Assembly: GCF_000377905.1 (NCBI RefSeq)
Contig: NZ_KB898875.1
Coordinates: 1 to 64,000 of the forward strand
DNA length: 64,000 bases
Source of the DNA: Thioalkalivibrio sp. ALMg11
Lineage (GTDB): Bacteria; Pseudomonadota; Gammaproteobacteria; Ectothiorhodospirales; Ectothiorhodospiraceae
Direction of reading: 5' to 3'
A model generated the notes under the pieces. The model did not search any database. It was not told where the DNA came from and saw only the letters and a list, made by a program, of their open reading frames with translations. This document shows, piece by piece, positions 1 to 25,856 of this stretch. A program made the translations under genes and the position numbers. How positions within the stretch are numbered: the stretch's first letter is position 1; the number at the start of each line of letters is the position of its first letter.

Positions 1-56
1 TTTCGCACGGCGTGGGAGATGGTGCGTTTCGCTGCGCTCAACCGCACCCTACGGGA
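1..56 (+). repeat. Partial GGATG/CGCAGCG palindromic repeat, cut by window start
   Basis: The stretch around 21-54 (GGTGCGTTTCGCTGCGCTC, then AACCGCACCCTACGGG) is nearly identical to 19441-19474 and is related to the right arm of the palindrome at 54529-54563. Only one arm is inside the window. It lies directly in front of the large structured repeat at 57-335, the same arrangement as at 19389-19756, so the two probably moved or were copied together. No reading frame here looks like a gene. Confidence 0.6.
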
Positions 57-335
57 TACCGTTTGTTTTGACCGTCGCCTCCCGTATGGAGCCCCTTGCG
101 GAAGGGTGCTCGGGCCGGGAGAAGGCGCTGGATGTCTGAGCGGAGCCGAAGGCGCAGCGAGGTCAGCGCCGCCGGCCCGAGGGCCCTGGAGCAAGGTTCC
201 CGGGCGGAATCCGGGGGCCCTTCTTTGGGTACTTTCTTGGGCAAGCAAGAAAGTACCTCGCGGTGCGCTCGCGAGAGAGCGCCTGGCAGGCGGCCGGACG
301 AAGCCACCGTAAACACCTGATGACGAACCCTGGCC
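57..335 (+). repeat. Structured repeat element, copy 1 (type a)
   Basis: One of five copies of a ~250-320 bp repeat in the window. Three hairpins can be drawn. Hairpin I has outer arms 109-118 and 172-181 (CTCGGGCCGG/CCGGCCCGAG) and inner arms 124-130 and 164-170 (GGCGCTG/CAGCGCC). Hairpin II has arms 228-239 and 246-257 (GGTACTTTCTTG/CAAGAAAGTACC). Hairpin III has arms 265-270 and 277-282 (GCGCTC/GAGCGC). The tail carries the shared words GGCAGGCGGC and CACCGTAAACACC, and a degenerate copy of the tail lies at 358-388. Open frames run through both strands but show no family resemblance. The interval 336-422 holds nothing else recognisable. Confidence 0.75.
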
Positions 336-18187: not shown

Positions 18188-18901
18188 ATGCGCCAGATCG
18201 TGCTGGATACCGAGACCACGGGCCTGGAGCCCTCCGGCGGGCACCGCATCATCGAGATCGGCTGCCTGGAACTGGACAACCGTCGCCCCACCGGGCGCAG
18301 GCTGCACGAATACCTGCAGCCGGATCGCGAGATCGACGCCGGCGCGATCGCGGTGCACGGGATCACCAATGAGTTCCTGGCCGACAAGCCACGGTTTGCC
18401 GATGTCGTCGGCGAATTCGTGGACTTCATCCGCGGGGCCGAGCTGATCATCCACAACGCGCCCTTCGATGTTGGTTTCATCAATCACGAACTGGGCTTGC
18501 TGGGCGATGTGGCCCCGGCGCGCGAGGTGACCGAGGTCAGCAGCGTGCTCGATACGCTGGTGATGGCGCGGCGCATGCACCCGGGGGCGCGCAATTCCCT
18601 GGATGCCCTGTGCAAGCGCTACGAGGTGGATGGCTCCGGGCGCACCCTGCACGGGGCGCTGCTGGATGCCGAGCTGCTCGCGGATGTCTATCTGGCGATG
18701 ACCGGCGGGCAGGTGGCGCTCACCCTGGATTCCGGAGGCGACGGCGACGCCGCGGCGGGTGGGCCCGTGCAGGCCCGGCGCTCCGGCAAGCCGTTGCCGG
18801 TGATCGAGCCGACACCGGAGGAGCAGGCGGCCCACGAGACGCTGATGCAGATACTCGATGATGCGGCAGATGGCCCCTGCCGCTGGCGCGCGAACGCCTG
18901 A
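18188..18901 (+). CDS. dnaQ: DNA polymerase III epsilon subunit (3'-5' proofreading exonuclease)
   Basis: A 237-residue proofreading subunit. The DEDDh exonuclease motifs are Exo I LDTETTGL (D7, E9), Exo II HNAPFDVGF and Exo III H...D in LHGALLDAELLA. The C-terminal ~45 residues are the flexible segment that contacts the alpha subunit. GAAGGAA is upstream. It is the last gene before a 1.05-kb repeat region. Confidence 0.95.
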   Translation: MRQIVLDTETTGLEPSGGHRIIEIGCLELDNRRPTGRRLHEYLQPDREIDAGAIAVHGITNEFLADKPRFADVVGEFVDFIRGAELIIHNAPFDVGFINHELGLLGDVAPAREVTEVSSVLDTLVMARRMHPGARNSLDALCKRYEVDGSGRTLHGALLDAELLADVYLAMTGGQVALTLDSGGDGDAAAGGPVQARRSGKPLPVIEPTPEEQAAHETLMQILDDAADGPCRWRANA

Positions 18902-18968
18902 GGCCCGCACCAGCGGCTCTAGCGGCTCGCCCGGACTTCGCCGCGGGCTCGTCCTCGTTCATTATCTG

Positions 18969-19290
18969 GTGTTTACGTGCCTTTGTCCGGCCGCCTGCCA
19001 GGCGCTGACTCGCCAGCGCGCCGCGCCCGTTTTTGATCAACAACTGGCTTCTTTGCTCGTGCAAAGAAGTACCCAAGAAACACGCCCGACTGCCGCGACC
19101 CCGGCCCGCTGCGCGGGCCGGGGTTTCCCTCGCTCCGAGGCTTTTCGCGGGCGGCGCTGAACTCGCTGCGCCTGCGGCTCTGCTCAGACATCCAGCGCCC
19201 CGTGTCCATTTAGAATCGTCCCGCGAAAACCCTCTCCACTCGGCGCGACGACAACGGGGAAAGGTCCAAACAACGGCCGTCCCGACCACT
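18969..19290 (-). repeat. Structured repeat element, copy 2 (type b)
   Basis: Reads on the minus strand. It is nearly identical to 24301-24541 over the stretch covering the hairpin II region, the GGCCGGGG hairpin and the hairpin I flank (19060-19165). The outer stem of hairpin I is CCCGCGAAAA paired with TTTTCGCGGG with one mismatch nearby and a ~20-base insertion inside the arm. One arm of hairpin II is damaged (GGCTTCTTTGC against GCAAAGAAGTACC). Hairpin III is GCGCTG/CAGCGC. The gap 18902-18968 before it holds nothing recognisable. Confidence 0.75.
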
Positions 19291-19390
19291 GTGCTCATGG
19301 ATGAAGGCTAGGTCTTCGGACATCTTGGGCACGCTCGGGCTGCGGCCATGGCGTGCCGCGCCCGCGAAGCGGGCGCCGGGGGGGGCGTAG
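19291..19390. repeat. Spacer shared by the two back-to-back structured-repeat pairs
   Basis: Contains GGCTAGGTCTTCGGACATC, GGGCACGCTCGGGC and GGCGTGCCGCGCCCGCG. The reverse complement of 24140-24236 aligns over nearly the whole length. It joins copy 2 (minus) to copy 3 (plus), giving a composite unit spanning 18969-19756. An 8-G run lies near 19379-19387. Confidence 0.65.
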
Positions 19391-19475
19391 GATGTGATGA
19401 GCGAAGCGAATCGCATCAGGGTCTCGCACGGCGTGGGGATGGTGCGTTTCGCTACGCTCAACCGCACCCTACGGG
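19389..19475. repeat. GGATG/CGCAGCG palindromic repeat
   Basis: The left arm TAGGATGTGATGAGCGAAGC and the right arm GCTACGCTCAACCGCACCC are imperfect complements. It is the same family as 54474-54563 and 1-56. Here, as at 1-56, it stands just in front of a type-a structured repeat. Confidence 0.6.
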
Positions 19476-19496
19476 GCACGGGCTGGCAGGAATGTC

Positions 19497-19756
19497 GGGA
19501 TAGCGTCTGTTTTGACCTTCTCCTCCCGTATGGAGCCCCTCGCGGAGGGCGTGATGGGCCGGGAGAAGGTGCTGGATGTCTGAGCGGAGCCGCAGGCGCA
19601 GCGAGTGCAGCGCCGCCGGCCCAGCGCGTCCGGAGCGAGGTTCCCGGGCGAAATCCGAGTGTCCTTCTTTGGGTCCTTTCTTGGGCAAGCAAGAAAGGAC
19701 CTCGGGGCGCGCTGGCGAGTCAGCGCCTGGCAGGCGGCGGACCGAGGGCACCGTAA
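19497..19756 (+). repeat. Structured repeat element, copy 3 (type a)
   Basis: Aligns with copy 1. Hairpin I outer arms are 19555-19562/19616-19623 (TGGGCCGG/CCGGCCCA), a compensatory C-G to T-A change against copy 1. Hairpin II arms are 19672-19683/19690-19701 (GGTCCTTTCTTG/CAAGAAAGGACC), with an A-T to C-G compensatory change. Hairpin III arms are 19709-19714/19721-19726 (GCGCTG/CAGCGC), with a C-G to G-C compensatory change. The tail runs into the tandem repeat at 19729-19900. Confidence 0.75.
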
Positions 19757-19900
19757 ACACCGGATGTCGAACCGGGGCCAGCCGCAACCTCGCAGGCGGC
19801 GGACCGAGGGCACCGTAAACACCGGAGGACGAACCAGGGCCAGCCTGGTTGGCAGGTGGCCAGATGAGGGGCCACCGTAATCAGCGAATGACGAAGCGGG
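19729..19900 (+). repeat. Three tandem ~61-bp units of the structured-repeat tail
   Basis: Units begin at about 19730, 19792 and 19852 with GCAGG(C/T)GGC and each contains CACCGTAA(A)CA followed by GA(A/T)G-CGAA. The first two are nearly identical; the third is diverged. The tail module of the structured element has therefore been duplicated independently of its hairpins. The interval 19901-19949 holds no gene. Confidence 0.7.
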
Positions 19901-19949
19901 CGTGGCCGGCGCGAGCCGGAATGGGGATGGTGGGCGGGGTGGGGCGGCG

Positions 19950-20429
19950 TTAGCCGTGCTTCAGGATCCGCGCCCGTTCGCGCTCCCAGTCCTTGTCCTT
20001 CTTGTCGGCGCGCTTGTCGTATTCCTTCTTGCCCTTGGCCAGGCCGACCTCGAGCTTGGCGCGCCCGCGCTTCCAGTACAGAGCCATGGGCACCAGGGTG
20101 TAGCCCTTGCGTTCCACCGCGCCGACCAGGCGATTGATCTCCGCGCGATGCAGCAGCAGCTTGCGCGTGCGGCTGGGATCCGGATTGATATGGGTGGAGG
20201 CGGTAGGCAGCGGGGTGATGTGGGCCCCGAACAGGAAGGCCTCGCCGTTGCGCAGCAGCACGTAGGCCTCGCTCAGCTGGGCCCGCCCGGCGCGCATCGA
20301 CTTGACCTCCCAGCCCTCGAGCTCCATCCCTGCCTCCAGGCGGTCCTCGATGAAGAATTCGTGGCGCGCCTTGCGGTTGAGGGCGATGGTGCTGGACGGT
20401 TCCTTGGCTTGTTTCTTGTTCTTTCCCAT
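19950..20429 (-). CDS. smpB: SsrA-binding protein SmpB
   Basis: A 159-residue partner of tmRNA in trans-translation. Conserved blocks are [23 protein letters not shown](M/L)[11 protein letters not shown] and the basic tail [16 protein letters not shown]. Start 20429 (MGKNKKQ) fits other SmpB proteins. A TACACT hexamer lies 10-15 bases upstream of the ATG, suggesting a very short leader. No tmRNA gene (ssrA) was found next to it. Confidence 0.96.
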
Positions 20430-20496
20430 AACCCGCGCAGTGTACTGCAGGTGGGCGGCCGAAGCAGTTCGAATGTCCGGGCGCGCGGGGTGAAAG

Positions 20497-20525
20497 TTGA
20501 GCCGGGCGACCCGCTGCCCCACAAT
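20497..20525 (+). promoter_or_regulatory. Possible sigma-70 promoter for the NSS transporter gene
   Basis: TTGAGC (20497-20502), a 17-base spacer and CACAAT (20520-20525) lie about 100 bases before the ATG at 20626. Support is by motif and spacing only. Confidence 0.3.
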
Positions 20526-20625
20526 TCCGGCGGACCCGGCGATGCGCTTGCGCGACCGGCCCTGGCCGATCCCGGGGGCGGCGGCCGCGCGAGCGCCCCC
20601 GTCTCCGTTCAACAAGGAGCCACTG

Positions 20626-21984
20626 ATGCCAGCCACGACCTCGATCCACGGGCAATGGACGACCCGCCTGGCCTTCATCCTCGCGGCCACCGGTTCGGCT
20701 GTTGGCCTGGGCAACATCTGGCGTTTCCCCTATATCGCCGGTGAGAACGGGGGTGGCGCCTTTGTGCTGGTTTATCTCGGTTGCATCCTGCTGATCGGCC
20801 TGCCGGTGATGATGGCGGAGATCCTGCTGGGCCGGCGCGGGCGGCAGAGCCCGATCAATACCATGTCGGCCCTGGCGCGCGAGGAGGGCCTGACGCGCGC
20901 GTGGGGCATGATCGGCTGGATCGGGGTGCTGGCCGGTTTCCTGATCCTGTCGTTTTACAGCGTGGTCGCCGGCTGGTCGCTGTCGTACGTCTTCAAGTCG
21001 GGGACCGGCGGTTTTCTCGGGCTGGATGCAGATGGCTCGGAGTCGATGTTCGGCAACATGCTGGCGGACCCGGAGGCCCTGCTGGCCTGGCACACGATCT
21101 TTATGGTGATGACCGCGATGGTGGTCGCGCGAGGGGTGCAGTCCGGCCTGGAGAAGGCGGTCACCATCCTGATGCCTTTGCTGTTCGTGATGCTGGTGGT
21201 GATGGTCGGCTATGCGATGGTGGAGGGGCAGTTCCTCGCCGGACTGCAGTTCCTGCTGTATCCGGACTTTTCCGCGCTGTCCGCTAACGCGGTGCTGCTG
21301 GCGATGGGGCAGGCCTTCTTCACGCTCAGCCTCGGCATGGGCGCGATCATGATCTATGGCAGCTACCTGCAGAGCGATGCGTCCATTGCGCGCACCTCTG
21401 CGGCGGTGGTCGGGGCGGACACCCTGGTCGCGATCATGGCCGGGCTGGCGATTTTCCCCATCGTGCTCGCGGCCGGGCTGTCGGCGGAGCAGGGGCCGGG
21501 GCTGATCTTCGTGACCCTGCCGCTGGCCTTTGCCGACATGCCGGGCGGGTTGTACTTCGGCACCATGTTCTTCGTGCTGCTGGTGTTCGCGGCCTGGACC
21601 TCGGCGATCTCCATCATCGAGCCGGCGGTTGCCTTCCTGGTCGAGAACCTGGGGCTCAGCCGGGTGATGGCGACCTCGATGATCGCCATCGGCGCCTGGG
21701 TCCTCGGCATCGGTGCGCTGCTCTCGCTGAACGTCTGGTCGGACTACACCCTGTTCGACATGGGATTGCTGGATCTGCTGGATTACGTGACGGCCAACAT
21801 CCTGCTGCCGCTGGGTGGGTTCCTGATCGCGATCTTCGTGGGCTGGCGCATGACCGAGCGGTCGGTGCAGTCCGAGCTGCGCATGAAGCACCCGGTGCTG
21901 TACCAGGTCTGGTACTTTCTGGTGCGTTTCGTCGCGCCGGTCGCGATCCTGTTTGTGTTCCTGCGCGCCGTGGAGTTGATCTGA
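20626..21984 (+). CDS. Sodium-dependent transporter of the NSS (SNF, LeuT-fold) family
   Basis: A 452-residue inner-membrane protein with 11-12 predicted helices. The first helix has the family signature [14 protein letters not shown], which forms the sodium and substrate sites; helix 6 has [16 protein letters not shown] proteins couple sodium entry to uptake of amino acids or related amines; the substrate cannot be named from sequence. AAGGAG lies upstream. It is divergent from smpB and ends one base into ratA (TGATG). It is not part of the usual smpB-ratA order, so it is an insertion into a conserved block. Confidence 0.9.
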
Positions 21985-22424
21985 TGGCCTCGAAGATTCG
22001 CCGCTACGCGGACGTGCCCTACAGCCGTGAACAGATGTTCAATCTGGTGAATGACGTCGACGCCTATCCGCAGTTCCTGCCCGGCTGCCGCAGCGCTTCC
22101 GCGCGCCCGCGTGGGGAGCATGAGGTGGAGGGCACGATCGAGCTGGCCAAGGGGGCGCTGCACAAGTCGTTTACCACCCGCAATACGCTCAAGCGGCCCG
22201 AGAGCATCGACATGCGTCTGGTCTCCGGGCCGTTCCGACGCCTGCACGGGACCTGGAGCTTTACCCAGGTCGAAGGCGGCAAGACCCGCATCGCCCTGGA
22301 GCTGGAGTTCGAGTTCGCCAACCGAATCATGGCCTTCGCCATCGGCCCGGTGTTCACTCAGATCGCCAATTCGCTGGTGGATGCCTTTGTCCAGCGCGCG
22401 CGCGAGGTCCACGGTGGCGGATAG
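21984..22424 (+). CDS. ratA: RatA family START-domain protein (ribosome-association toxin / ubiquinone-binding homologue)
   Basis: A 146-residue SRPBCC protein of the RatA/Coq10 group. Blocks VPYSREQMFNLVNDVDAYPQFLPGC and LVDAFVQRA are typical. E. coli RatA was reported to block association of ribosomal subunits; the mitochondrial relatives bind coenzyme Q, so either role is possible. It forms the conserved ratA-rnfH pair next to smpB. Confidence 0.9.
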   Translation: MASKIRRYADVPYSREQMFNLVNDVDAYPQFLPGCRSASARPRGEHEVEGTIELAKGALHKSFTTRNTLKRPESIDMRLVSGPFRRLHGTWSFTQVEGGKTRIALELEFEFANRIMAFAIGPVFTQIANSLVDAFVQRAREVHGGG

Positions 22425-22452
22425 CCACGTGGCGCCGGCCGCAGAGGGCGGC

Positions 22453-22806
22453 ATGATCCGGGTGGAGGTGGCCTACGCGCGGCCCGACCGGCAGGTGATC
22501 CTGCCGCTGGTGGTGCCCGAGGGCACTACGGTCGATATCGCGCTGCGCCAGTCGGAGATCGAGCTGCAGTTCCCCGAGATCGATCTGGACAACGCCAAGG
22601 TCGGGATCTTCGGCAAGATCACCCGTCGGGACACTGTGCTTCGCCCGCGCGACCGTATCGAGATTTATCGCCCGCTGATTGCGGACCCGAAGGAGGTGCG
22701 TCGCCAGCGCGCTGACAAGGGGCGCAAGAAGAAGCCGGGCAAGGGCGACGCAGACGCCGCCGGCGAGAGACCCAAGGGCGAGACGGCGGACAGCGCGAAG
22801 GAGTAG
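22453..22806 (+). CDS. rnfH: RnfH family ubiquitin-like protein
   Basis: A 117-residue protein with the RnfH blocks VEVAYARPD, VGIFGKITRRDTVLRPRDRIEIYRPLIADPKEVRRQRA. The function is unclear; named after an rnf cluster, it usually accompanies ratA. The C-terminus is a lysine- and glutamate-rich tail longer than in E. coli. ATG 22453 is chosen because it matches homologue length and has AGAGGG upstream; GTG 22414, overlapping ratA, would add 13 residues. Confidence 0.85.
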   Translation: MIRVEVAYARPDRQVILPLVVPEGTTVDIALRQSEIELQFPEIDLDNAKVGIFGKITRRDTVLRPRDRIEIYRPLIADPKEVRRQRADKGRKKKPGKGDADAAGERPKGETADSAKE

Positions 22807-22842
22807 CAGGGGCTCGCGGCGGCGAGATGCCGCGCGCGGGTG

Positions 22843-23205
22843 TCAGTCGTTGTCTCTGTCTACCGGATGCTCGTCCAGCGCCACCGGCTGCGGGATGTCG
22901 GTATCCACATGGCTGACTACGCCGTTGTCGAAATGCACGGTCACTCGCTGGCGTTCGGTCGCGCCGAAGCCCGGTCGGCGATAGTAGACGTAGTCCCAGC
23001 GGTCGTCGGCCCGGAAGGCGGGCTCCAGCTGGGGCGATCCCATCAGGAAGCGGACCTGCTGCGGGGTCATGCCGGGCTGGATCTGAGCCACCTGGACGGG
23101 GTCGATCACATTGCCCTGCTGGACATCCAGACGGAACTGGTTGAGGCCGCCGCAGGCGCTCAGCAGGCTTGCGGCCACGGCGATAGAAATGAGAATCTTG
23201 ATCAT
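22843..23205 (-). CDS. bamE: Outer membrane assembly lipoprotein BamE
   Basis: A 120-residue lipoprotein of the BAM complex that inserts beta-barrel proteins. The signal peptide ends in lipobox LSAC (Cys18). The SmpA/OmlA fold is marked by QPGMTPQQVRFLMGSP and WDYVYYRRPG. It is divergent from fur across 98 bp, as in pseudomonads, and its partner BamD is encoded at 36331. Confidence 0.94.
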   Translation of the reverse strand: MIKILISIAVAASLLSACGGLNQFRLDVQQGNVIDPVQVAQIQPGMTPQQVRFLMGSPQLEPAFRADDRWDYVYYRRPGFGATERQRVTVHFDNGVVSHVDTDIPQPVALDEHPVDRDND

Positions 23206-23303
23206 CTGAGCGGGCGGTCCTCGGCGTCTGGTGGGCCGTGAACGCGCATGGTACACCAAAGCGTCCCGCCTCTCTCAAGCGGACGGGACCGGGAAAACGG
23301 GCA

Positions 23304-23729
23304 ATGGAAACGAGCAATCTCAAGAAGGCCGGACTCAAGGTCACGTTGCCGCGGATGAAGATCCTCGAGATCCTGGAGAGCTCGGAAACCCGTCATCTGA
23401 CGGCCGAGGCGATCTATCGCGAGCTGCTCGATTCCGGCGAGGAGATCGGTCTGGCCACGGTGTACCGCGTGCTGACCCAGTTCGAGGCGGCGGGGTTGGT
23501 CTGCCGGCTGCATCTGGAGGGCAACCAGGCGGTATTCGAGCTGGAGCGCGGCGGGCACCACGACCACATCGTCTGCAACCAGTGCGGGCGAGTCGAGGAG
23601 TTCTTCGACGAAACCATCGAGCGCCGTCAGCGGGAGATCGCCCAGCATCACGGTTTTGCCATCAAGGACCATGCCCTGGTCCTGTACGGCGACTGCAACG
23701 ACAGCGCCTGCCCCCACCGCCCCGCCTGA
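23304..23729 (+). CDS. fur: Ferric uptake regulator Fur
   Basis: A 141-residue Fe(II)-responsive repressor. The winged helix has TLPRMKILEIL and GLATVYRVLTQFEAAGLV. The metal-binding region is HHDHIVCNQCGRVEEF followed by the C-terminal C..D..C pair (CNDSACPH). The start METSNLKKAG fits other Fur proteins. A short TCACAC/GTGTGA hairpin at ~23772-23788 lies downstream without a U-run; the rest of 23730-23848 shows nothing. Confidence 0.96.
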   Translation: METSNLKKAGLKVTLPRMKILEILESSETRHLTAEAIYRELLDSGEEIGLATVYRVLTQFEAAGLVCRLHLEGNQAVFELERGGHHDHIVCNQCGRVEEFFDETIERRQREIAQHHGFAIKDHALVLYGDCNDSACPHRPA

Positions 23730-23848
23730 CCACGCGCTTCCCGTAGCCGCTGTCCCAGTCGCGCCAATGCGTCACACACGGCGTGTGATGCCTGCCCGCT
23801 TGCGGGCTATTGTTCGCCCAGGAGTGGCTGGTCCCGGTTCGGCGATCG

Positions 23849-24100
23849 GTGTTTACGGGGGCTTCGTCCGGCCGCCTGCCATGCGCTGACTCGCCAGCGC
23901 GCCCCGAGGTACTTTCTTGCTTGCCCAAGAAAGTACCCAAAGAAGGGCACCCGGATTTCGCCCGGGAACCTCGCTCCGGACGCGCTGGGCCGGCGGCGCT
24001 GAACTCGCTACGCCTGCGGCTCCGCTCAGACATCCAGCGCCTTCTCCCGGCCCATCACGCCCTCCGCGAGGGGCTCCATACGGGAGGAGAAGGTCAAAAC
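23849..24100 (-). repeat. Structured repeat element, copy 4 (type a)
   Basis: Minus-strand copy matching copies 1 and 3. It keeps GGTACTTTCTTG/CAAGAAAGTACC (hairpin II), GCGCTG/CAGCGC (hairpin III), GGGCCGG/CCGGCCC (outer stem of hairpin I) and the GATGTCTGAGCGGAGCCG core. The tail word GGTGTTTACGG begins at 23848. The ~700-bp unit 23849-24541 is an inverted counterpart of 18969-19756. Confidence 0.75.
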
Positions 24101-24119
24101 CAACCGTATCCCCACGCTT

Positions 24120-24235
24120 CCGCCTAACCATAGGCATTGCCGCCCGAAAGCCCCCGGCGCCCGCCGCGCGGGCGCGGCACGCAACGGCCAAAGGCCGAGC
24201 GTGCCGAAGATGCTCGAAGACCTAGCCATCATCCA
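24120..24235. repeat. Spacer between structured-repeat copies 4 and 5
   Basis: On the minus strand it contains GGCTAGGTCTTCGAGCATC, CGGCACGCTCGGCC and GTGCCGCGCCCGCG, matching the spacer at 19291-19390. Because it is inverted relative to that spacer, the two composite units face opposite ways. Confidence 0.65.
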
Positions 24236-24541
24236 CTGGCAAGAACGCTGGGATAGCCGTTGTCTTGACCTACCTCCCCGTTGTCGTCGCGCCGAGCGGA
24301 GAGGCTTTTCGCGGGATTCAAGGCGCTGGATGTCTGAGCGAAGCGCAGCGTAGCGAGTTCAGCGCCGCCCGCGAAAAGCCTCGGAGCGAGGGAAACCCCG
24401 GCCCGCGCAGCGGGCCGGGGTCGCGGCAGTCGGGCGTGTTTCTTGGGTACTTCTTTGCACGAGCAAAGAAGTACCTCGCGGTGCGCTCGCGAGAGAGCGC
24501 GTGGCAGGCGGCGGACCGAAGCCAGCGTAAACACCAGATGT
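24236..24541 (+). repeat. Structured repeat element, copy 5 (type b)
   Basis: The cleanest type-b copy. The outer stem of hairpin I is a perfect 15-bp pair (24301-24315 with 24368-24382, GAGGCTTTTCGCGGG and its complement); the inner stem GGCGCTG/CAGCGCC is 24322-24328 with 24360-24366. An extra GC-rich hairpin (CCCCGGCCCGC/GCGGGCCGGGG) lies at ~24396-24420. Hairpin II is a perfect 13-bp pair (24446-24458 with 24463-24475). Hairpin III is GCGCTC/GAGCGC. The interval 24542-24619 holds no gene. Confidence 0.75.
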
Positions 24542-24619
24542 CGAACCATGACCAGACTCAACCCGGCGGTTGATGGGCCGAGTCCGACCACCGGGGTAGG
24601 CGGTCGGGTGAAGCCTCGG

Positions 24620-25309
24620 TCAGGCGGACGCGTCGAGCTGCGGCGCGAAATGCGCTGGCGCAAAGCCGTCCTGCTGGCGCAGGTAGTCGGCCAGTTGCGC
24701 CGCAAAGTCGGTCGGGACCGAGTCCCGCACGGCCGGCATCTCGCGCAGCTGGTCCCAGCGCGCCGCCAGGCGCGGGAAGGCTTCGGCCTCCCAGGGGCTG
24801 TCCGGATCTTCGAGCAGCGCGTAGCGCATCAGGATGGGGGCCAGGGTGGCGTCGATCAGCGAGAAGCCGGGCGCGGCCAGGCGGTCATCCTGCGTCATCT
24901 GCTGTTCCAGACGCTCCAGCCCGCGCGCGGCGGTGTGCCGCGCCAGCTCGAAGGCGTCCTCGGTGGCCGCGGTCATCCAGTGGTACTGGGCAAAGGTCTG
25001 CTCCGAGAGGTACTCGATCCAGGCCCGGGTGCGCGCCTGTTCCAGCGGGTCGGTCGCCATCAACGCGGGCGGGGTAATGGCATCGATGTATTCGTTGATT
25101 ACGGCCGACTCGAACAGCACGGTGTCGTGGTCGACGATCAACAGCGGCACCTTGCCCAGTGGCGAGCGCGTGCGGAACCAGTCCGGCGGGTCAGCCAGAT
25201 CGATCAGGCTCAGCTCGAACGGCGCCTCCTTGTATTTCAGCGTGATCACGCTACGCTGAACAAACGGACAGATGGCGAAACTGATCAGGTGCAGATGCGG
25301 CAGATTCAT
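24620..25309 (-). CDS. Glutathione S-transferase family protein
   Basis: A 229-residue GST-fold protein. The thioredoxin-like N-terminal domain has FAICPFVQRSVITLKYKE, with a Cys-Pro-Phe at the usual active-site region, GKVPLL with the cis-proline, and FESAVINEYID. The C-terminal helical domain has FSLIDATLAP, the N-capping and Asp motif. The substrate is unknown; it resembles the group with a cysteine active site, which often does thiol transfer rather than conjugation. Start 25309 follows GGT-rich sequence; no clear ribosome site. It is divergent from hslR. Confidence 0.85.
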   Translation of the reverse strand: MNLPHLHLISFAICPFVQRSVITLKYKEAPFELSLIDLADPPDWFRTRSPLGKVPLLIVDHDTVLFESAVINEYIDAITPPALMATDPLEQARTRAWIEYLSEQTFAQYHWMTAATEDAFELARHTAARGLERLEQQMTQDDRLAAPGFSLIDATLAPILMRYALLEDPDSPWEAEAFPRLAARWDQLREMPAVRDSVPTDFAAQLADYLRQQDGFAPAHFAPQLDASA

Positions 25310-25415
25310 GGTGGTCTTCGGCGTCCGCAGGTGGGGCAGGGGCCCGATCCGGGTCGCCGGTTCCTCGCTTTCAAAGGTGGCGCATTGTCTCCCCTCGTGA
25401 TGCCGCGGGAAAGCC

Positions 25416-25856
25416 TTGGGCAAGGGTAACGGCCGCAACGGGGCCCCCAGTGCCGGGCTGCGGATCGACAAATGGCTATGGGCGGCGCGCTTCTACAAGA
25501 CGCGCGCCCTCGCCAGCGAGGCGGTTGGCGGCGGCAAGGTCCACGTGAACGGCGAGCGCTGCAAGCCGGCGCGCCGGGTGCACACCGGTGATCGCCTGAC
25601 CATCCACCGCGGCCCGCAGGTCTGGGAGCTGGATGTTGTCGATTTGAGCGATCAACGCCGGCCGGCGCGCGAGGCCCAGGCGCTGTACACCGAGACCGAA
25701 CAAAGCCAGACCCGGCGCGAGGCCGAAAGCGAACGCCGGCGCGCCCAGCGCGCGGTCGCAGACAGCGCCCCCAGCCGGCGACCGGACAAGCGCGAGCGGC
25801 GCAAAATCCGCCGCTTTATTCGCCAGGACGGCAGCGACAGGAGTGAATCCGAGTGA
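25416..25856 (+). CDS. hslR: Heat-shock-related RNA-binding protein Hsp15 (S4 domain)
   Basis: A 146-residue S4-domain protein. LRIDKWLWAARFYKTRALASEAV and KVHVNGERCKPARRVHTGD are diagnostic of HslR, which binds 50S subunits carrying stalled nascent chains and helps recycle them. The C-terminal ~50 residues are charged and Arg-rich. A TTG start at 25416 with GGGAAAG upstream is used. The stop overlaps the start of the Nudix gene (GTGA). Confidence 0.9.
   Translation: MGKGNGRNGAPSAGLRIDKWLWAARFYKTRALASEAVGGGKVHVNGERCKPARRVHTGDRLTIHRGPQVWELDVVDLSDQRRPAREAQALYTETEQSQTRREAESERRRAQRAVADSAPSRRPDKRERRKIRRFIRQDGSDRSESE

Follow-up and report, generated by a model that had tools for sequence, protein, structure and literature searches.

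The window analysed here is a stretch of 64,000 nucleotides of Thioalkalivibrio sp. ALMg11, located on contig C5 of an assembly of 18 contigs, and, judged by a window protein, its closest relatives are T. versutus and the Thioalkalivibrio sp. ALE/ALJ strains. A sequence-only reading had described in it five copies of a repeat with three hairpins whose stems change on both sides. The sequences and coordinates of the copies were as it gave them, including the exact 15-bp pair 24301-24315/24368-24382 in copy 5, and the hairpins with their paired changes are real, although what had been counted as five copies does not make five units. Copy 1 and copy 5, used as queries against the genome, gave paired places on opposite strands a few hundred bases apart, and the copies are the arms of a non-coding, two-armed inverted-repeat element of approximately 720-830 bp, present in the window as the elements E2 and E3 and one half (Table 1). 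The genome as a whole contains 13 two-armed elements, some of them truncated (E5, E10), in addition to the half element at the window start.

Table 1. Positions of the elements, their arms and the hairpins of copy 1 within the window
Feature	Position	Strand	Remarks
Copy 1, A-type arm (L023)	57..335	+	Outer half of an element; other half cut off by the contig start at window position 1
Hairpin I of copy 1	94..202	+	Outer stem, then a 3x3 GGA/GGA internal loop, a second stem and an inner one enclosing GATGTCTGAGCG
Outer stem of hairpin I, copy 1	109-118/172-181		
Hairpin II of copy 1	228..257 (228-239/246-257)	+	GGTACTTTCTTG/CAAGAAAGTACC, preceded by the TTCTTTGG box; evidence is pairing counts and class-wide recurrence
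Hairpin III of copy 1	265..282 (265-270/277-282)	+	GCGCTC/GAGCGC; pair 213-220: GC 66, CG 18
GTAG-type REP unit of central segment, beside copy 1	21..52	+	Also at 19441-19472 within E2; family type in PMC3733652
Element E2, complete, two-armed	18957..19773	.	Between an RNase_T-family exonuclease gene (18188-18901, +) and smpB (-, ending 19950)
Copy 2, B-type arm of E2	18957..19283	-	GTTGATCAA-type module in place of the outer pairs of hairpin II
Copy 3, A-type arm of E2	19501..19779	+	
Additional ~55-bp outer end unit in tandem, next to E2	19780..19841	+	
Element E3, complete, two-armed	23836..24553	.	Between a conserved plus-strand gene (23231-23746) and a glutathione S-transferase gene (24620-25471, -)
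Copy 4, A-type arm of E3	23836..24108	-	
Central segment of E3 between the arms	24109..24235	.	
Copy 5, B-type arm of E3	24236..24553	+	

The element is laid out as a left arm on the minus strand, a centre and a right arm on the plus strand, with a unit of approximately 55 bp at each outer end. From the middle to the outside an arm carries the branched hairpin I, a small hairpin, the TTCTTTGG box, hairpin II and hairpin III. The end unit terminates in GTAAACACC-n-GATGnCGAACC, with matching units at both ends of the element, and the outermost GTAAACACC words, previously taken for unpaired core, belong to this unit. Extra tandem copies of it, some degenerate, lie beside a number of elements (E7, E8, E10, E12-E14, as well as at the position in Table 1). 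There are two arm types, A (copies 1, 3 and 4) and B (copies 2 and 5), approximately 72% identical over the part that matches. The arms point outward in 74 of the 74 two-armed elements from this and related genomes (36 in the order BA, 30 AB and 8 AA), that is, 66 combine one A arm with one B arm, 8 have two A arms and none has two B arms. Hairpin II had been said to persist in all copies and does so in the others, but in copy 2 the module listed in Table 1 places GGTAC opposite GCCAG, and a module of the same type breaks the base of hairpin II in elements E6, E9, E12 and E14. Most own-genome elements, though not E3, have at their centre two GTAG-type REPs that face each other (REPIN-like, about 105 bp). 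When the two ends of an element were compared for co-variation, the within-element identity was 0.779 as against 0.753, a difference too small for use. Contigs C9, C18 and C48 of genome G008 stop within elements, so that draft assemblies undercount them.

Pairing was tested on 58 A-type arms with a consensus fold of 48 pairs, 13 of which were altered on both sides, and 98.4% of the stem cells were paired. There were 193 double-change cells compared with a shuffled mean of 74, a figure reached in 0 of 500 shuffles, the arm copies not being independent of one another, which inflates this count and the strand counts given below. Sliding the partner by 1-3 columns reduced pairing to 35-49% and the double-change cells to 1-38, and a tree-based count gave 28 one-step Watson-Crick-to-Watson-Crick changes as against 0-3 for the slid pairings. 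The base of hairpin II exists as the pair sets TA, TC and CA with matching partners and hairpin III swaps G-C and C-G. The hairpin structure is maintained in the arms, with statistical support; the compensatory changes that had been reported are far above chance, and a covariance model of the arm, built and searched as the sequence-only reading had suggested, found further copies. Pairing is maintained beyond phylogeny, as in structured RNAs, but this is also expected of folded single-stranded DNA or of repaired palindromes. Arms L047 and L068 of genome G018 are paired throughout (GCGGAGG/CCTCCGC) where hairpin I otherwise has its 3x3 GGA/GGA internal loop.

The further claim that selection for structure had been seen directly was too strong. 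On pairs predicted on both strands, referred to here as strand-neutral, the trees gave 28 (A) and 33 (B) one-step Watson-Crick-to-Watson-Crick changes but only 3 (A) and 0 (B) restorations by a G-U step. Divergence between A arms was 0.139 for paralogs in the same genome, 0.151 for orthologs at the same site and 0.175 for others, and because A arms resemble one another more within one genome than they do across species at a shared site the copies overwrite each other, i.e. they are homogenised. In the own-genome element E9 (L016, contig C2) the loop of B-arm hairpin II, GCACGAGC, has been inverted to GCTCGTGC along with its flank, the footprint expected of template switching during replication, which is an established route by which stems are made and mended; such stem patterns can be produced by template switching or gene conversion (PMC8794818). 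On the side of selection, nearly all other arms preserve the loop orientation, and at site E3 genomes G000 and G010 agree about as well in the element (0.90 of aligned bases) as in the flanking genes (0.90-0.91) and less well in the left non-coding flank (0.80, with many gaps). Since most of the double changes are one-step, the copies are homogenised within genomes and inversion at orthologous sites is near-random, the paired changes fit a recombining BIME/MITE-like repeat as well as they fit an RNA, and selection is not proven to be their cause.

Both neighbouring genes could be called for 66 elements, and of these 44 lie between converging genes, 22 between co-directional genes and 0 between diverging genes, figures that derive from rough ORF calling at sites that are not independent; the same rough calling of 49 adjacent gene pairs in the window gave 9 converging, 31 co-directional and 9 diverging. 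E2 was counted as co-directional in this tally, yet smpB shows that it lies between converging genes. The element is placed beside gene 3' ends, with an excess of convergent sites. Flank comparison revealed that many sites are common to several species, and related species have comparable numbers of elements, many of them in the same places. Site E3 carries the element in G000, G003, G010, G021, G024, G025 and G026, contig ends give partial evidence of it in G008 and G020, and such shared positions are long-lived. The order of A and B at orthologous sites was the same in 33 cases and flipped in 40, from which it follows that the direction of the element does not matter. A further 28 pairs of elements have only one flank in common and flanks have been exchanged between genomes (L016/L084/L021, L014/L061/L070, L015/L059/L075), so that the elements mark breakpoints of chromosome rearrangement.

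In kind this is an ordinary dispersed palindromic repeat, the form of which is unusual in being large, two-armed, outward, long-sited and freely inverted. The explanation that we favour, with a confidence that falls short of even, is an orientation-independent 3'-end element with BIME-like spread. Most likely it would act on read-through transcripts of the flanking genes as a 3'-end structure that works in either direction, through termination or 3'-end protection, because either orientation is tolerated and the element is located where transcription comes in from both sides; it would be copied and repaired by ectopic recombination, gene conversion and template switching. There are a number of points against a 3'-end role. 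The patchy distribution, from 0 to approximately 18 elements per genome across one genus, fits selfish repeats better than a structure that the cell needs, convergent placement may reflect only that insertions elsewhere are harmful, and the element can be lost, as at site E3, where G001 and G029 retain only a palindrome of approximately 110 bp in which the two outer ends stand end to end, and nothing but degenerate end units is left in G022. As for intrinsic terminators, none with a T run could be assigned clearly to the hairpins, one weak consensus match excepted.

A possible alternative, somewhat less probable than a 3'-end element, is a selfish non-autonomous DNA repeat of the MITE or REP type with no host function, which would survive where it does least harm and whose hairpins would serve its spread as single-stranded DNA or stem from template-switch repair. 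The high copy number and patchy occurrence, the one-step double changes with almost no restored G-U intermediates, the inverted loop of E9, the known capacity of template switching to create and maintain stems and the swapped flanks, as recombination breakpoints, are all what such a repeat would leave. The GTAG-type REPs in the centre point the same way, and the element shares with BIMEs and REPs, including those with a GTAG tag (PMC3733652, PMC2817692), an intergenic, palindromic and modular character, several copies per genome and a position beside gene 3' ends. However, a REP or BIME unit measures 20-100 bp, compared with the 720-830 bp, the two homologous arms and the fixed outward order found here, and about 13 copies stand at long-shared sites without a linked RAYT gene. 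Y1/RAYT transposase (Y1_Tnp) genes are present in genomes with and without the element and no arm lay near any of the 20 fetched Y1/RAYT loci at E<0.06; mobilisation by RAYT was rejected for lack of linkage at these loci. One genome has four closely spaced RAYT-type (Y1_Tnp) genes of 231-235 aa (G029:C1:1652462-1657093). MITEs (reviewed in PMC10969869) resemble the element in being non-coding and dispersed with inverted ends, and the outer end units here form terminal inverted repeats, but the usual MITE is 70-300 bp long (PMC3733652), whereas this element is longer, has positions conserved between species rather than scattered, and ends in units that are also found in tandem. No target duplication, clean empty site or parent transposase was found, the unoccupied E3 sites of G001, G029 and G022 keeping end remnants. 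The plasmid and phage records searched contained no element, and the orientation of the hairpin loop is preserved in nearly all arms, both of which speak against a purely selfish repeat.

The excess between converging genes, the independence of orientation and the size of the palindromes, which are able to form cruciforms, would also suit an element acting at the level of the chromosome (e.g. a gyrase, IHF or nucleoid-protein site, or a supercoil sink) where transcription converges, as has been proposed for enteric REP/BIME, but we regard this as unlikely. Structure is kept here while stem sequence changes, something for which a sequence-specific duplex site has no need, and there is a preference, though a weak one, for one strand. 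In 152 of 153 arms (85/86 A and 67/67 B) it is the strand read from the inside outward that gives the more stable fold, although the arms are related and do not amount to 152 independent results, and at strand-neutral pairs G-U changes outnumber A-C changes by 31 to 18. A count of 161 G-U against 28 A-C on forward-predicted pairs was discarded because the predictor is biased. Fold energy and the excess of G-U are thus a lean towards one strand, not a proof, and they lend weak support to action as RNA rather than as DNA, a function that is unproven.

The extent to which the element reaches beyond the genus depends on the part considered. Matches to ACTTTCTT-loop-AAGAAAGT-n-CAAAGAA were present in 31 of 369 gammaproteobacterial genomes (27 of 271 genera) and matches to a reversed control of this pattern in 0 of 369, and several of the former are arranged as inverted pairs with a spacing of about 450-1,100 bp. 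A covariance model of the arm (R1) gave outward pairs in L055, L056/L174, L139, L142, L143, L144, L146, L149 and L150; genome G045 has weaker inward pairs, so that beyond the genus the outward order does not always hold. Homology of the whole arm, as a reading of full-length R1 matches outside the genus, was withdrawn, as a model of hairpin I only (R2) revealed that these matches rest on hairpin II and the box. Beyond the genus R2 matched nothing significantly (with filters, nothing at E<0.5); with filters off the top matches of L161 and L058 were at the right place and strand with E values of about 0.07-0.09. These searches show as shared outside the genus only hairpin II, the TTCTTTGG box and, in part, the paired layout. 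Viral contigs contain 81 stretches with the hairpin pattern, as pattern matches only. A search of the literature by sequence string and keyword found no description of a two-armed element.

Rfam, to which the sequence-only reading had also pointed, has no family that matches the window. For TwoAYGGAY RNA (RF01731, PMC2864571) there was no match in the window at the gathering threshold (43 bits), nor at E<1 over 18900-24620, and the best score in the own genome, 27 bits, lies elsewhere on contig C4. In genome G030 of a sister genus (g2), however, ten matches reach at least the gathering score, and the ones examined are immediately inward of hairpin II and share its strand; there TwoAYGGAY fills the place of hairpin I and adjoins the same hairpin II and box. 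The window arms differ in having, instead of the family's two hairpins, which share a stem and end in AYGGAY loops, one inner stem around GATGTCTGAGCG, and homology of hairpin I to TwoAYGGAY is not demonstrated. TwoAYGGAY is itself a multi-copy dispersed repeat, found at L058:1542-1707 (-) and nine other places in G030 and at about 22 in G045, a fact relevant to the proposal that it is a single RNA that binds CsrA (PMC4333381). That each arm is a dedicated regulatory RNA, possibly binding a CsrA-type protein, related to TwoAYGGAY and transcribed outward from the middle of the element, is the least probable reading, for although the G030 matches, the CsrA encoded in the own genome and the better folding of the outward strand favour it, the window arms lack a TwoAYGGAY match, the hairpin-I-only model finds nothing significant outside the genus, no outward promoter stands out in the centre and part of the genus has lost the GGA in the core word (CTGGATGT to CTGACTGT). 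A CsrA sponge was rejected since the CsrA protein is present but the GGA word is not conserved.

It is conceivable, but we consider it rather unlikely, that the orientation-free 3'-end element belongs to an unnamed class-wide family in which paired outward structured arms (hairpin ACTTTCTT..AAGAAAGT and the box) would form a two-way 3'-end RNA device between gammaproteobacterial genes, with Rfam's TwoAYGGAY as one arm type. If the structure does act on transcripts, then a kind of repeat commonly written off as junk would turn out to be a 3'-end device that works in both directions in many genera of Gammaproteobacteria, and a supposedly solitary RNA of Rfam would turn out to belong to a dispersed repeat. 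If it does not, the element would be a clear case of strong covariation arising from a recombining palindrome, and a warning for the discovery of RNAs by covariation only.
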